A stretch of DNA of 50,047 bases, taken from a virus. Shown piece by piece: positions 13,979 through 28,534 of the stretch (position 1 is the first letter of the stretch; each line of letters starts with the position of its first letter). The position numbers were made by a program, and so were the translations under genes. The notes beneath the pieces are model-generated. The model searched no databases, was not told where the DNA came from, and was given only the letters and a program-made list of their open reading frames with translations. The stretch spans positions 1 through 50,047 of IMG/VR virus record IMGVR_UViG_3300032893_000070. One strand, written 5' to 3'.

Positions 13979-14265
13979 AAAAGCGCAAAGTGTTTTGCGA
14001 GCACTGTCGGTGGTACCGCATTGATGTCGAAGGAGGGATGGACTGGTTTCTCTTCTTCGATTGCGACTCACCGAAAAACCGATTCAAGGAGAAAGACACC
14101 TATTCCCACCCGGGCGGATTCAAACGAGAGAAGCCCGAAGTTCTCAACGCTGCGAATGACTGCCCGCTCTACCAAGCCGCAAGCGCAGTCGCAGTCGAGT
14201 GGTCAAGAGGAAAGTTCGCGGGCCCCGCGAACTACTACACGCTTTTTGAAAAGGAGAACGCATGA
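13975..14265 (+). CDS. Small Cys-containing protein
   Basis: 96 residues with CEHC near the start (residues 8-11) and further Cys at FDCDSP and NDCPLY, so a metal site is likely. The family resembles small phage proteins with CxxCxW beginnings; not named. Coupled at both ends by ATGA. Confidence 0.65.
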   Translation: MKKRKVFCEHCRWYRIDVEGGMDWFLFFDCDSPKNRFKEKDTYSHPGGFKREKPEVLNAANDCPLYQAASAVAVEWSRGKFAGPANYYTLFEKENA

Positions 14266-14912
14266 AAACCAAGTCACGACAGCTCTCTCCCAAGAAGACC
14301 CGCGCCGTCGCGACCGTCTCACCCGAAGCCCGCGAGCTTCAGACCCTCAAATCTCGCGCACTCTCCCTCGTCGAGTCCTCTCGCTCCATCCAGGTGAAAG
14401 ACACCCCGAGCTTCGAACGTGCCGGCGACCTCGTGAAAGACGCCGTGGGGCTCCGAAAGGATCTCCAGTCTACCGCCTTCTACCGCGCCCTCGTCGAAGC
14501 CAAGGCCGACCTGAAGACGAAAGACCAGCTCTACAAGAGCGTCGAGAAGCTCGTCAAAGACGCCGAGGACCTCATCCGCGACTCCCTTTCCCGCTACGCC
14601 GCCGAGCAGCGCTGGAAGCAGGAGAAGGCCATCGAACGCGCCATGGAGAAGGGAAAGGACGAGAAGGCCGCCACCATCGCCGCCACGCCTTTCGTACCGC
14701 CCGTCCAAGGCTTGTCCTTCACCGAGCACTGGCACGCCGAGGTAGAAAGCCTCCACGCGCTCGTCAAGGCCGCTGCAAGCGACGCAAACCTCCTCGCTTA
14801 CCTGGATGCCAACATGGTCGCTTTGAACGCTCTGGCGAGGCTCCAGAAGGACTCCATGGCCATCCCCGGCGTCAAGGCGGTGAAGGAAACCTCCTCCTCG
14901 GTGAGAGCATGA
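14262..14912 (+). CDS. Coiled-coil hypothetical protein
   Basis: 216 residues, almost all helical and Lys/Glu/Ala-rich (residues 45-140 look like a coiled coil, with a KQEKAIERAMEKGKDEKAA basic stretch). It could be a DNA-end-binding or oligomeric protein, but I recognise no Gam-type or other family. Coupled to the membrane protein gene by ATGA. Confidence 0.65.
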   Translation: MKTKSRQLSPKKTRAVATVSPEARELQTLKSRALSLVESSRSIQVKDTPSFERAGDLVKDAVGLRKDLQSTAFYRALVEAKADLKTKDQLYKSVEKLVKDAEDLIRDSLSRYAAEQRWKQEKAIERAMEKGKDEKAATIAATPFVPPVQGLSFTEHWHAEVESLHALVKAAASDANLLAYLDANMVALNALARLQKDSMAIPGVKAVKETSSSVRA

Positions 14913-15091
14913 AAAGCCTGCCATTTTGGCTCTGGGGGGCGTTCGTCTTGGGTTGGGTATCAGGGATCTTTCTCACCGTGATACCCTCGGGCACCATTCA
15001 CTGGCTCTTCATCGGTGGTGTAGTAGTCCTTTTCGGGGTCTACTCCAGCATCGCAAGGCGCTTTCTTGGAGGAAAGAAAGACGACACTTGA
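14909..15091 (+). CDS. Small membrane protein
   Basis: 60 residues with two predicted transmembrane segments (about 6-26 and 30-47) and a basic end (RRFLGGKKDDT). Last gene before the structured RNA region; the promoter there overlaps its stop codon. Confidence 0.6.
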   Translation: MKSLPFWLWGAFVLGWVSGIFLTVIPSGTIHWLFIGGVVVLFGVYSSIARRFLGGKKDDT

Positions 15092-15118
15092 CACCGTAGG
15101 GCCATCCTATGGTATCTT
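15088..15118 (+). promoter_or_regulatory. Promoter of the structured RNA region
   Basis: TTGACA (15088-15093), then either GTATCT (18-base spacer) or TATCTT (19) at the -10. The -10 is weaker than at the other promoters. It overlaps the stop of the preceding gene, so transcription would start near 15125 and run into the structured region. Confidence 0.5.
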
Positions 15119-15312
15119 CTCCTTGCTTTCCAACAGCATCCGGGGTGGTCGAGAGGAAAGTCTTACTACGGCGTTGCCGCTTACAGACACCTTTCGACCC
15201 GCCCCACTCTTTGACAAGCCATTTCGAAGCGCCTGTACGGGTGGAACGGGTAGCCCGGTGAAGACTTCACCCTCACCGGTTGCGCTTGATCCCGAGTCGT
15301 ACAGGCGTCTCG

Positions 15313-15387
15313 ACCCTCCACGGACAAAAGGAAATACCACGGAACGGGTCTCCGGCCTTCGGCGAGGCACACCGTGGAGGGTTTTTT
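15313..15387 (+). terminator. Terminator-like hairpin inside the RNA region
   Basis: 11-bp perfect stem ACCCTCCACGG/CCGTGGAGGGT followed by TTTTTT. Its 48-base loop holds its own hairpin, GTCTC...GAGGC around GCC-TTC-GGC. The right arm CCGTGG could also pair with a second CCACGG at 15337-15342. It ends immediately before the tRNA-like element. Confidence 0.6.
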
Positions 15388-15503
15388 CGGGGGTTAGGTG
15401 TAGTGGGAACACCGGGGGTCGCGCCCCTTTCTGCTGCTGGATCGGTAGGGGCGGCCTTACCGCTGGCTGTGCAGACGCGCAGGTTCGATTCCTGCACCCT
15501 CGA
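15388..15503 (+). ncRNA. tRNA-like element with no readable anticodon arm
   Basis: Acceptor CGGGGGT (15388-15394) pairs with ACCCTCG (15496-15502); T8/A9 analogues TA; D arm GGTG-TAGTGGGAA-CACC (15397-15413) with canonical AGxGGxA-type loop; T arm GCAGG-TTCGATT-CCTGC (15479-15495). Instead of a 17-base anticodon arm plus short variable loop there are 65 bases, with a GGGG/CCCC hairpin, an outer TCTGC/GCAGA stem (15430/15471) and an 8-bp hairpin (15443-15462). No loop gives a Y-T-anticodon-R pattern, and no CCA is encoded. It may be a tRNA-like domain, like that of tmRNA, or a degraded tRNA. Confidence 0.5.
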
Positions 15504-15616
15504 CAAAGCGGCGTTGCCGCTCAGAGGCTCGGGCGCCGGGGCGTGAACAGCCACGGTTCTCCCGGGATCGGGTTATTCCCGGCGACCCGCGCCTCGTCTC
15601 TGGAAAGAGAAAGATT

Positions 15617-15750
15617 GACGGCAGAAGTAGGGGCGTCGGGAAAAACCAGGTGCGAACTGGCGACAGGGCACTACGCTAATACAATACCCGCCGCACTTCC
15701 CGCGTACTATGGGGCCGAAAGGCAAGTTAGGCGCGGGCTGCCGTCTTTTT
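15617..15750 (+). terminator. Closing stem and T-run at the end of the RNA region
   Basis: GACGGCAG (15617-15624) pairs with CTGCCGTC (15738-15745), followed by TTTTT, just before the AAGGAG of the next gene. Inside are GTCG/CGAC, CCAG-7 bases-CTGG, CCCGCG/CGCGGG and a GAAA tetraloop. It may terminate the RNA or, if read through, act as an attenuator for the Maf-like gene. Confidence 0.55.
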
Positions 15751-15761
15751 AAGGAGATCCC

Positions 15762-17009
15762 TTGAACCTTACCCCAGAGCAGAAAGCTTCCATCGAGTCC
15801 TTCAACACAAACGCGACCACGACCAACGAGAACGTCATCGAGAAGTACGTCTCCCGCTGGTCGAAGAACATCGGCTCACTCATCCGCTCGGGCATCGAAC
15901 TCCGAGGAGCCAAGCCCCTCTGTGAGAAGCTCTCGCGCTTTCAAGACTTCCTCGTCTTGGGCTCAGGTCCGTCGATCCAAAGCATTTGCTCCGACCTTCC
16001 AGACAACGACTGGAGGGATTCGCCCGCAATCCTCTGCGGCCCCACGGCCTACGGGGCGCTTCGCGCAATCGACGTTCACCCGACGGTCATCCTCGTCGCC
16101 GACCCCTCTCCGACCCAATACCGCCACATGGTCGAGAACCTTTTCGACTCCCCGTGCGACTTCCTTCTCCCTGTCACCTGCGACCCCGCGTGGTACGCGA
16201 AGGACTCGATCATCCCCAAGTCGCGCCTTTTCTTCTACCTTCCGTTCTTCTCCTGGCTCGGGGACACCCAGATCGCCTTCAACGCGATGCTTCAGGACCT
16301 CTTTCCCGAGATCTCCCAGAGCTGGTTTCTCCAGGCGGGCTCCGTGGCGAACCTTGCCGTCCATTTCGCCGACAAGACCTGCGGTATGGACCCTTCCAAA
16401 CGCATCTACATCGCAATCGAGAACTCCTGGACCGAGGGCGGACCCTACCGTGCCCCCCTCCGATTCGCCCTCCCGCACTACTCCGAGAGCCTTCGCTCAT
16501 GGTTCAATTCCCCCCAGAACCAGATGCTCACCGAGCCTCGCTCCCGCCGCCAGACCGACATGACCTCGCTCAACTACGCGGTGAGCCTCTTCTACTCCAT
16601 CCACTGTCTCATCTACTTCGAGGGCGAGGAGGCGAAGAAGGCCCGCGAGAAGCGCTACCATCTCGTCCACGAGGCCTCTTCCCTCTATCTCTGGGCCTCA
16701 CCCGCATCCTTCCGTCCGCTCTTCTACCCCGCCCCCTACCGCTATCTCGACTCGCGCCTCGACGTGACGGTCGAGCACTGGACCTACAAGCTCGTTCTCG
16801 ATCTCATCGCCCTCACCGAAAAGCTCATGAGCGAACTCCGAGACGCGGCGGTGGAAGACGCCCTTCGCGTCTGGAAGGAAGGCAAGGCCACCGCAGTCGA
16901 GATCCCGGTCCCGAATGATACCGAGGCCCGAAAGGTCGAGAAGGCCATCCATGACATCGACCCCTCGGTCAAACTCATCTTCAAGAAACCGGAGGTGGAG
17001 AAGGCATGA
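15762..17009 (+). CDS. Maf/DUF115-like protein (MptE-like fold)
   Basis: 415 residues from TTG 15762, preceded by AAGGAG. The Rossmann-like core has VLGSGPS (residues 65-71), CGPTAYGALRA (92-102) and a VADPSP segment (112-117), the pattern of the DUF115/Maf_flag10 and 6-hydroxymethylpterin diphosphokinase MptE-like group. Bacterial Maf proteins attach nonulosonic sugars to flagellin. A phage copy could act on a sugar or modify a surface or DNA component; the methyltransferase-like and GT2 genes 3-5 kb downstream fit a sugar pathway. Substrate unknown. Confidence 0.65.
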   Translation: MNLTPEQKASIESFNTNATTTNENVIEKYVSRWSKNIGSLIRSGIELRGAKPLCEKLSRFQDFLVLGSGPSIQSICSDLPDNDWRDSPAILCGPTAYGALRAIDVHPTVILVADPSPTQYRHMVENLFDSPCDFLLPVTCDPAWYAKDSIIPKSRLFFYLPFFSWLGDTQIAFNAMLQDLFPEISQSWFLQAGSVANLAVHFADKTCGMDPSKRIYIAIENSWTEGGPYRAPLRFALPHYSESLRSWFNSPQNQMLTEPRSRRQTDMTSLNYAVSLFYSIHCLIYFEGEEAKKAREKRYHLVHEASSLYLWASPASFRPLFYPAPYRYLDSRLDVTVEHWTYKLVLDLIALTEKLMSELRDAAVEDALRVWKEGKATAVEIPVPNDTEARKVEKAIHDIDPSVKLIFKKPEVEKA

Positions 17010-17463: not shown

Positions 17464-18389
17464 CAGAGCGTTCTGCTTCCCCGGCGGGGATTCACTTTTT
17501 TAACCTGTTCCAATGTTGTCCCCGGAAGGGGTATATCCGCTTCGGCCCCCCGCGCTTGGAGCCGATGTACATTCCCACGCCGCTCCTCCAAGGCAGCGCC
17601 TTCCACGCCGGCAAGGCCGAGTTCTACAAGACCGAAAAGGAAAAGAACGCCCTCGCCCTAATCCGTTCGGAACTGAAAGAGCGAAAGGCCGAGTTCGAGT
17701 CGAGGAAAGAATACCTCTCGACGCTCGAAAGAACTCCCGCCATGCTCGCCTCGTGGATCGCCGAGTTCGGTCGGGATGATCTTCGTCACCTCTCCATCAT
17801 CGACGTGGAGCGCTCCATACGGATTCCCTTCCCCGGCCGCCCTTCCTGGCACTTCACTGCGAGGATCGACATGGTAGCCGAGGATCGTTTCTCCAACACC
17901 CTTATCTACGAGACGAAATCCACCTCGTGGTCGATCAAAGGAACCCTCATCTCCATCCAGCTCGGAGACCAAGCCACCGCGTATCTCTGGGGCGGGGGAA
18001 AACACTACAAGCGGAAGATCACCGCCGTCGTTCCCGACATCACGATGTTTTCCTCAAACGCCAACAGTCCCGCGTCGATCAAAAACTACCGGGGGGATTT
18101 CGTCTACCGCGAGCCCGAGGACTTCACCTTCTTCTCAAACGCAACGCTCCAGCAGGCGTCCGAGATCTCCCAGAAGATGAAGGCCGTCTACGCGGGCCAC
18201 GACCCGGCGATCTTTCCCCGGAATCCCTTCTACTGCTCGGCCTACGGGCGCCCCTGCGAGTTTGCCGACATCTGCCGTCAAAACCTCACCGCGAAGTCCA
18301 AGGTTCCGACCGGCTTCAGGAAACGCCCGGGCAAGTTCTCAACCCCCGAGATCTTTGAGCCCACAGAAGATCTTCTCTCAGGAGGATGA
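17460..18389 (+). CDS. Cas4/RecB-like PD-(D/E)XK exonuclease
   Basis: 309 residues from GTG 17460. The PD-(D/E)XK core is clear: H49, D137 in RIDMV, E151-T-K153, and the QxxxY motif (Q171...Y175). A Cys near the start (C19/C20) and three near the end (C259, C266, C272) match the iron-sulphur cluster of Cas4/AddB-type nucleases. It probably acts as an exonuclease in recombination or replication, alongside the Sak4-like ATPase 2.5 kb downstream. No Cas1/Cas2 or CRISPR is present, so a CRISPR role is not suggested. Confidence 0.8.
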   Translation: MTERSASPAGIHFFNLFQCCPRKGYIRFGPPRLEPMYIPTPLLQGSAFHAGKAEFYKTEKEKNALALIRSELKERKAEFESRKEYLSTLERTPAMLASWIAEFGRDDLRHLSIIDVERSIRIPFPGRPSWHFTARIDMVAEDRFSNTLIYETKSTSWSIKGTLISIQLGDQATAYLWGGGKHYKRKITAVVPDITMFSSNANSPASIKNYRGDFVYREPEDFTFFSNATLQQASEISQKMKAVYAGHDPAIFPRNPFYCSAYGRPCEFADICRQNLTAKSKVPTGFRKRPGKFSTPEIFEPTEDLLSGG

Positions 18390-26513: not shown

Positions 26514-26690
26514 ATGAAACAAGCCTCGGTGGAACTTCCAAGAGGTGGAAGGAAAGTGAGACTCATTCCAGGAGGAGACCCCGAACGACGTGTTCGGCAC
26601 GCGATCTATCGTCCTTCGGGTAGATATTGGTGGACAAAAGGTGGTACGTGGGAGCTTAACCCAAAAGACGAATGGGAGTATGAAGAGTGA
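26514..26690 (+). CDS. Small basic hypothetical protein
   Basis: 58 residues (MKQASVELPRGGRKVRLIPG ... RYWWTKGGTWEL). Its stop overlaps the GTG of the UDG-polymerase gene. Base composition here and in the first 450 bases of the next gene is more AT-rich than around it. Confidence 0.55.
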   Translation: MKQASVELPRGGRKVRLIPGGDPERRVRHAIYRPSGRYWWTKGGTWELNPKDEWEYEE

Positions 26691-28534
26691 AGCTCTTCCG
26701 AATCACCCGTACGAAGTCCAAGTGCTCGGTGTGTCCTCTGGACGGATACTGCACGAAAGTGAGGGGGGAAAGTGTCACAGAGACGCCAAAGATCGCCTTC
26801 ATCGGTGAGGCACCGGGCGAAGAGGAAGACCGATTTGGGCATCCCTTCGTTGGAAGTGCGGGTAAAGAGCTTGATCGAGTGCTTGCAAAAGGTGGAATCC
26901 ACCGACACAATGCTTATCTCCTCAATCTTATCAACTGTCGCCCACCTGCGAACGACCTTGACTCTCCTGAAGGAACGGAAGCAATGGTGGCGTGTCGGAC
27001 CGGACTCGAACAAGAGCTTGGCGAACTCCACAAACTCGGTGTACGGACGCTGGTTACTTTGGGAAATGACCCGACACATGCCCTCGGCATTGAAGGAACA
27101 ATTGGAAAAGTACGTGGCTCAGTTTACGAAGTCACAGTTGCGGGTCTGAACTTCTGGGCCGTCCCGACCTTCCATCCCTCCTACATCATAAGGGGCCAGT
27201 GGTCGGAGGAACCCACCATGGTCTCCGACGTGGCGAAGGCCGTCGATATCGCCCTGAAAGGGTACAGCCCGCCGAAGGAGAACTTCCTCCTCTTCCCTAC
27301 GGTGAAAGACATCGAGATAAGGACAAAGGACCTTCTCAAACGAAAGCCTCTCCTCGGCGTGGACATCGAGACCACGAGCCTCAAACCCTGGGACGGGGAG
27401 ATTTTCGTGGTGGCACTCGCCGTGTCGGGCGAGGAGGCGTTTTCCATCCCCTTCTTTTCCCAGGGCTACAAGCCCTACTGGAAGAACGGAGACCTCCATG
27501 TGGTCCAGGATTGTCTCAAGGAGATTCTCTTCGAGTGTCCGACTATGTATCAGAACGCTCCATTCGATGTGGGCTATCTGGAGCACCACGGATACCCCGT
27601 CGGGCGAATCGCTCACGATGTTCTTCTCATACACCACGCGATCCATCCTGAGCTTCCGCATCGGCTTGCTTACATCGTTTCAATTTACGGCGCCACCCCG
27701 TACTGGAAAGACGTCAAGTTTCCTGGGCAGAAGATGGGTGAGGTGGATGATGAGAAACTCAGGACCTACAATGCCCGGGATGCCGTGGTCCTCCATCAGG
27801 TGCTCCCGCCTCTCCTTGAGGATCTTAAGGACACGGGAACCGAGCACATCTACTACAACTACTCCCTGAGGCTCATCCGCCCCATCCTTTCCATCCAGAG
27901 GAACGGAATGCTGCTCGACCGAAACCGACTTTCCAAGTGGAAGAAGGAACTCGAACATGATCTCTCAGAGACCGAACGCAGTCTACGAAGTACCGCCGAA
28001 CTACCGGTGGGGTTCAACTTCCAGTCTCCTCATCATCTCTCATGGTGGTTCTACGGAGAGGCACCCTCAAGTCTTCCGAAGTGGAAGGCGGAGCTTGCAA
28101 GCTATGAGGAAGAAGGCACGCGAAAGAAGAAGGCTTCGGCCAAGTACAAGGATCTCACAGAGCGCGTTGCGATCTTCGAGAAGATCACGCCCTTGGCCCG
28201 GTCCCGTTCCAAGACCAAGCGGACGAAGACCGGGTTTGCGAAGGATGAGAAGGCACTCCTTCTGGCAAAGCTTGCGGCGACTACTGAGATTGATCTCATC
28301 TCTCGGTTTCGCCGTCCGACGCCCGAGCACCTCGCACGGTTCGACGAGCTGAATCATCTCCGAGATTGCCTTACTCTCTTTCAGAAACGGCAAAAGCTGG
28401 CCAAACTTCTTTCTACCTATACCGACTTCGAGACCGCACCCGACGGCCGCGTCCACGCCGGGTTCAAGATCCACGGGACGGCCACGGGGCGCCTCTCATC
28501 GGGTGAGGGCCAGGAAGAGAGTGAGAGCGTATGA
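26687..28534 (+). CDS. Uracil-DNA glycosylase fused to N-terminal part of DNA polymerase A
   Basis: 615 residues from GTG 26687. Residues 1-190 are a family-4-like UDG: four cluster Cys (C13, C16, C84, C103), motif GEAPGEEEDRFGHPFVG (40-56) and FHPS (162-165). Next is a 3'-5' exonuclease starting LLGVDIETTSLKPWDG near 225, then the pol thumb and a K/R-rich insertion. The protein ends just after TGRLSS, the conserved start of the pol palm, with ten extra residues (GEGQEESESV). The catalytic half is in the gene at 28863-29735. It would remove uracil and edit and extend DNA; why it has a glycosylase is open (see Findings). Confidence 0.85.
   Translation: MKLFRITRTKSKCSVCPLDGYCTKVRGESVTETPKIAFIGEAPGEEEDRFGHPFVGSAGKELDRVLAKGGIHRHNAYLLNLINCRPPANDLDSPEGTEAMVACRTGLEQELGELHKLGVRTLVTLGNDPTHALGIEGTIGKVRGSVYEVTVAGLNFWAVPTFHPSYIIRGQWSEEPTMVSDVAKAVDIALKGYSPPKENFLLFPTVKDIEIRTKDLLKRKPLLGVDIETTSLKPWDGEIFVVALAVSGEEAFSIPFFSQGYKPYWKNGDLHVVQDCLKEILFECPTMYQNAPFDVGYLEHHGYPVGRIAHDVLLIHHAIHPELPHRLAYIVSIYGATPYWKDVKFPGQKMGEVDDEKLRTYNARDAVVLHQVLPPLLEDLKDTGTEHIYYNYSLRLIRPILSIQRNGMLLDRNRLSKWKKELEHDLSETERSLRSTAELPVGFNFQSPHHLSWWFYGEAPSSLPKWKAELASYEEEGTRKKKASAKYKDLTERVAIFEKITPLARSRSKTKRTKTGFAKDEKALLLAKLAATTEIDLISRFRRPTPEHLARFDELNHLRDCLTLFQKRQKLAKLLSTYTDFETAPDGRVHAGFKIHGTATGRLSSGEGQEESESV

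Follow-up and report, generated by a model that had tools for sequence, protein, structure and literature searches.

What does the interval from 15,120 to 15,752 of this phage genome, lying between a small ORF upstream and an MptE-like gene downstream, encode, and does it act as one RNA? The window, that is, the whole stretch of DNA analyzed, is the complete IMG/VR virus record IMGVR_UViG_3300032893_000070 (50,047 nt) of a tailed phage (a virus of bacteria), and its genes include those for terminase, portal, and DNA polymerase, as judged by profile matches. The protein encoded at 26687 to 28534 has a uracil-DNA glycosylase domain at its start and also matches DNA polymerase A and a 3′-5′ exonuclease. 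No DNA-level similarity of the window to known phages and plasmids was found, and a host search with the nuclease against bacterial genomes returned no relative.

The features discussed below are as follows; the last lies in a relative.

14262 to 14912, + strand: conserved upstream gene, exonuclease-like (phrog_10477, E 6e-7)
15088 to 15118, + strand: promoter TTGACA-N19-TATCTT (same arrangement across relatives)
15130 to 15210, + strand: module A, leader RNA, a long stem with internal loops and an apical GGC-GUU-GCC hairpin (covariance model and covariation)
15211 to 15312, + strand: module B, long imperfect hairpin (z −3.5; comparison with L002)
15313 to 15387, + strand: module C, terminator-like hairpin, an 11-bp base stem with an inner hairpin and then T6 (11-nt perfect arms)
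15388 to 15505, + strand: module D, tRNA-like structure (Rfam tRNA model, 22.4 bits, E 7e-4)
15506 to 15600, + strand: module E, two hairpins, a long one and GCGGCGUUGCCGC, which duplicates the apical hairpin of the leader (comparison with L002)
15601 to 15755, + strand: module F, structured domain that contains a GAAA-loop hairpin and has GACGGCAG/CTGCCGTC as its closing stem, then T5 (8-nt perfect arms, z −2.4)
15762 to 17009, + strand: downstream MptE-like gene (PF01973), 415 aa (Pfam E 3e-7, which narrowly misses the curated cut-off)
L019 183 to 214 (G004:C1 about 17,682 to 17,713), minus strand of L019: solitary CRISPR repeat of phage G004 (identity to array repeats)

Coding state and folding of the region

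A 228-aa frame crosses the region (15066 to 15752, + strand), and its length and openness could suggest a translated gene. However, its codon-usage score of −0.23, which is also that of 15,120 to 15,752, lies below the range of +0.27 to +0.47 that almost every gene reaches and is akin to the scores of spurious antisense frames, unlike those of 12 of the 13 reference genes. Because the frame scores as spurious frames do, the region is taken to be non-coding, as the first-pass annotation had described it, and coding was rejected on codon usage. The frame is also not kept in the nearest relative, L002, and module C has single-base indels, both of which speak against a real gene; that this frame is translated is hardly credible.

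The first-pass annotation had also seen structure beyond chance in the region, with nested complementary arms, a GNRA loop, and a terminator-like end, and this description held. The minimum free energy of the region was −300.3 kcal/mol compared to −261.6 ± 7.0 for dinucleotide shuffles (z −5.5), and none of the 20 shuffles was as stable. Each of the six modules A to F also fell below its own shuffles (z −2.4 to −4.9), and modules B to F taken jointly gave a z of −7.0. Paired arms were located, among other places, at 15142-15156/15190-15204 (the leader), 15224-15239/15298-15313 (16 nt, 88%), 15313-15323/15372-15382 (11 nt, 100%), and 15617-15624/15738-15745 (8 nt, 100%). The GCC-GAAA-GGC hairpin lies at about 15714 to 15723, and the closing stem of the region is followed by TTTTT, directly 3′ of which is the Shine-Dalgarno sequence AAGGAG of the MptE-like gene. 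The antisense strand folded equally far below its own shuffles, so folding alone leaves the strand undecided; the plus strand was assigned because of the promoter, the T-runs, the tRNA-like features, and the ORFs found in L002.

The promoter and the leader RNA

The predicted promoter has TTGACA at 15088 and TATCTT at 15113, and its −35 box overlaps the stop codon of the small ORF upstream. A strict scan for spacers of 16 to 18 nt did not pick it up; the actual spacer is 19 nt. Relatives were gathered from IMG/VR through protein anchors (terminase, nuclease, and MptE-like), and the leader was present in six phages: the window, G001 (L002), G002 (L017), G004 (L019), G008 (L074), and G009 (L080). 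TTGACA-N18/19-TAnnnT occurs in all six at a nearly constant distance from the leader, so that the promoter noted at first pass is kept in five relatives. On the reverse complement of L080 (11388 to 11556), another promoter of this type lies just upstream of the leader promoter; the ∼170 nt behind it, closed by the strong terminator AGAGCCCC..GGGGCTCTTTTATTT, may represent an additional small RNA.

The leader, about 70 to 85 nt long with its stem at 15142 to 15205, stands at the start of the region. A covariance model, R1, built from four leader sequences gave one match per genome in five phages (E 1e-15 to 1e-19), four of which match by construction and the fifth of which, L002, lies outside the model as a near-identical copy. 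Strong matches were confined to these 5 of the 23 records searched, all of this clade. The only independent match, in L074, was weak (E about 0.1 per genome); this leader is diverged, but it lies at the same site behind the same promoter and folds into a stem of this kind, to which one hairpin is added. No leader was detected in G003, which has the MptE-like gene. Among the four distinct sequences, compensatory changes were found in 7 of the 15 leader pairs, which none of 500 shuffles reached. The covariation score was 0.478 compared to 0.133 or less in controls, and no slid register reached it; four sequences are few and the structure was derived from those same four, and the slide control was clear. 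A good example is the apical hairpin, in which GGC-GUU-GCC becomes GCC-GUU-GGC in L080, and another is the stem, where GGGG..CCCC becomes GAAG..CTTC in G004. The leader is identical between L002 and the window, and the sample comprises only five distinct lineages. Conserved sequence was found in the apical GNCGUYGNC and on the 3′ side of the internal loop. The comparison thus established the structure and position of the leader as conserved. As far as Rfam and the collections searched go, the leader is a previously undescribed small structured RNA, confined so far to one phage clade.

Pattern scans of IMG/VR for further leaders returned 52 and 46 stretches, and only the phages already known proved real by fold and model. 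A match to the apical hairpin in L203 stood in a different context and was chance-like, and a nested stem around GGCGUUGCC in L025 gained no model score; both were set aside. As a separate observation, the leader apical hairpin CGGCGTTGCCGCT at 15169 to 15181 has one further copy in module E (15509 to 15521), which L002 shares with the window; it may represent a binding site used twice.

The exchangeable slot and its tRNA-like module

The first-pass annotation had proposed a single large structured RNA. What stood of this is a structured, promoter-driven region with terminator-like ends and with covariation in its first ∼80 nt; modules B to F are not kept as a block in relatives. The genes flanking the slot in L002 are about 87 to 88% identical to those of the window, and in the slot itself a 73-aa ORF takes the place of module B and a 72-aa ORF that of module F, interleaved with modules C, D′, and E. 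Modules C and E are 81% identical to their L002 counterparts. Module C folds in the same way there, and module E keeps its fold, is identical over its first 40 nt, and is followed by T7 in L002. The 630 nt are therefore not conserved as one molecule. Modules B and F were kept in no relative, and C and E were kept only in L002. The slot holds a 57-aa membrane peptide in G002, a 209-aa ORF in L080, and a non-coding stretch with a tRNA-like form in L074; the small ORFs of the slot gave no informative family. The exonuclease-like gene adjoins the slot in G002, G004, L074, and L080. By sequence comparison the region is a mosaic, with a fixed leader and swapped contents behind it.

In G004, the slot contains a solitary 32-nt CRISPR repeat, GTCGCGCCCTTCGCGGGCGCGTGGATTGAAAC, between the leader and the MptE-like gene. 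It agrees in every letter with repeats from the CRISPR arrays of many bacteria, is present as a single copy in the G004 stretch searched, and is of a sequence that we take, from the repeat consensus, to be type I-C. The window slot had no match to it at up to nine mismatches, and 688 spacers from arrays with this repeat gave no convincing match in these phages. A degenerate repeat-like 32-mer ending GTTGAAAC, with up to nine mismatches to the G004 repeat, lies on the minus strand of L005 near 14227 and is probably due to chance. Many viral solitary CRISPR repeats act as RNA anti-CRISPRs, often just behind a promoter (PMC10651486). Like these Racr or solitary repeat units, the lone repeat of G004 is identical to array repeats and stands directly behind promoter and leader (PMC10651486), which makes it a candidate RNA anti-CRISPR by analogy; unlike them, it is found in G004 only, and the cargo of the window resembles tRNA instead.

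That resemblance lies in module D, a tRNA-like domain inside the region that bears out the earlier hint of tRNA association. It has a 7-bp acceptor (CGGGGGT/ACCCTCG), a D-arm-like hairpin, extra arms, and the T-arm GCAGG-TTCGATT-CCTGC. The L002 counterpart is almost wholly different in sequence (acceptor GCCCCCG/CGGGGGC, T-arm CACGG-TCCGACT-CCGTG), and the form in L074 is about 57 nt long (GGGAGCG..GCGGG-TCCGAGT-CCCGG-CGCTTCC); the second T-loop position is C in both. The acceptor and T-arm combination arose in 19, 7, and 6 of 1,000 shuffles for the window, L002, and L074, respectively, and its presence was established by the comparison, as were the mosaic slot and the exact CRISPR repeat in one relative. 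The acceptor begins right after the module C T-run in the window and L002. In all, three of the six phages (the window, L002, and L074) have a tRNA-like structure in the slot and half lack one. The sole window match of the Rfam tRNA model (RF00005) falls exactly on module D, and the sole G008 match falls on the L074 form (10.7 bits, E 1.1); because both lie below the cut-off of 29 bits, these forms are regarded as tRNA-like and not as tRNAs. A normal anticodon arm was found in neither: in the window it needs a 25-nt "intron," and in L074 the arm is absent. Module D shares with phage tRNAs and viral tRNA-like structures the 7-bp acceptor, the T-arm GGTYCGANTCC, and the D-arm-like hairpin, and differs from them by a ∼45-nt extra insert; the L074 form has little beyond acceptor and T-arm. 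A search for tmRNA with ARAGORN -m made no credible call.

With introns allowed (ARAGORN -i), module D was called as tRNA-Pro GGG with a 25-nt intron, and this call and the 22.4 bits from Rfam would fit a decayed or intron-bearing ordinary tRNA gene. However, the score is under the cut-off, an acceptable anticodon arm is missing, and the relatives differ inside yet keep acceptor and T-arm intact, which simple decay would not do. We know of no bacterial precedent for so short a tRNA intron. An ordinary tRNA gene is thus a doubtful reading, and as to the function of module D, it may be a decoy or a processing site, two readings that compete.

One large RNA, antitermination, or a cargo cassette

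GOLLD, one of the two analogues named in the first-pass annotation, is a symmetric RNA-only multimer (nanocage). Both GOLLD and ROOL occur in phages, frequently close to tRNAs (PMC12286853), and the region shares with them the phage setting, a size of several hundred nucleotides (about 630 nt), and the tRNA association. These likenesses, together with folding well below shuffles, would suit one large ornate RNA belonging to a new class, in which the tRNA-like domain would be internal and module F would be the terminator. The covariance models gave the GOLLD/ROOL assignment no support: an Rfam cmscan of the window had no match at gathering and only chance-level ones at E ≤ 10. GOLLD (RF02032) was absent from the window at either threshold and from the six phages, and ROOL (RF03087) was absent from the window cmscan and from a search of the six phages, in which it matched no control genome either. 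A reading of GAGGAAAGUC as an RNase P conserved region was dropped because Rfam support was absent. Terminator-like hairpins internal to the region also argue against one molecule, as does L002, which has an identical leader and interleaves modules with ORFs; the region is modular, and we consider a single large RNA quite unlikely.

The position of the terminator-like stems bears on what the leader may do. In the window, L002, and L074, fewer than 35 nt separate the end of such a stem from the start codon that follows: the T5 run lies just before the start at 15762 in the window, T7 and then a Shine-Dalgarno sequence occur in L002, and GGGGCG..CGCCCC-TTTT precedes the MptE-like gene in L074. 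Because there is no room for a promoter between stem and start codon, the downstream genes seem to need read-through in these three phages, and because read-through seems needed, the conserved RNA at the 5′ end is an obvious element to consider for antitermination in cis. Downstream expression could also be served by terminators that leak or by some other arrangement. The genes behind the leader in G002, G004, and L080 have no evident terminator, so antitermination is not required there, and the downstream operon showed only a slight excess of terminator-like sites (24 on both strands, compared to 17.4 ± 4.8 by chance). The put RNA of phage HK022 suppresses terminators through the zinc-binding domain of the RNA polymerase β′ subunit. 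It acts on its own RNA polymerase without protein and, as putL and putR, is a short, folded RNA located immediately downstream of a phage promoter, with terminators to pass (PMC9378689). The leader resembles it in lying just behind the promoter, in its length of ∼70 nt, in its fixed stems with bulges, and in the terminator-like stems to be passed downstream. However, put has two stem-loops whereas the leader is one long interrupted stem with an apical hairpin, HK022 has two put copies compared to one leader per genome, and the leader had no sequence match in the phage collection. By structure the leader is not a put RNA; that it is a protein-free antitermination element working as put does, a sharper form of the main reading, is possible by analogy and offered tentatively. 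A new class of protein-free antitermination leader, unrelated to put and driving a dedicated slot of RNA decoys that would mimic a CRISPR repeat in one phage and tRNAs in others, appears unlikely. Alternatively, the leader might merely protect the 5′ end of the transcript or tune its translation or processing, with the tRNA-like modules as RNase P/Z sites that cut a multipart transcript. The stable stem at the 5′ terminus and the acceptor right behind the module C T-run are consistent with this, and an acceptor with a T-arm is the minimal RNase P substrate. However, the conservation of GNCGUYGNC and of the 3′ internal-loop sequence exceeds the needs of a protective stem, and half of the phages have no tRNA-like module; such a role is somewhat improbable.

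The reading that we prefer, at a probability of about 45%, is that of a phage promoter followed by a conserved cis-acting leader and an exchangeable cargo slot, likeliest a host-takeover or anti-defense cassette. The promoter would yield a transcript, the first ∼85 nt of which would fold into the leader. The leader would be fixed in the clade, and everything between it and the conserved gene that follows would be exchangeable cargo. In the window this cargo would be non-coding, with long hairpins, a tRNA-like RNA, and a domain closed by a terminator; relatives would have small ORFs or tRNA-like RNAs there, or else a solitary CRISPR repeat, presumably of type I-C sequence. The leader would have a cis effect on transcription or on early expression; it may help RNA polymerase to read through the terminator-like hairpins, which would allow cargo and downstream genes to be expressed. 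RNA cargo would serve as decoys of host RNAs (crRNA repeat and tRNA). Transcription, antitermination, decoy, and anti-defense functions are what we infer from these features; the anti-defense role is suggested, by analogy, by the CRISPR repeat of one relative and the resemblance to tRNA. An anti-defense cargo locus would be expected to look like this slot, in which one phage has a solitary repeat and the related phages have small elements of other, unrelated kinds.

The fixed leader may therefore provide a handle for finding anti-defense cargo, including RNAs that are invisible to protein searches, and it makes testable whether leader RNAs other than put antiterminate.
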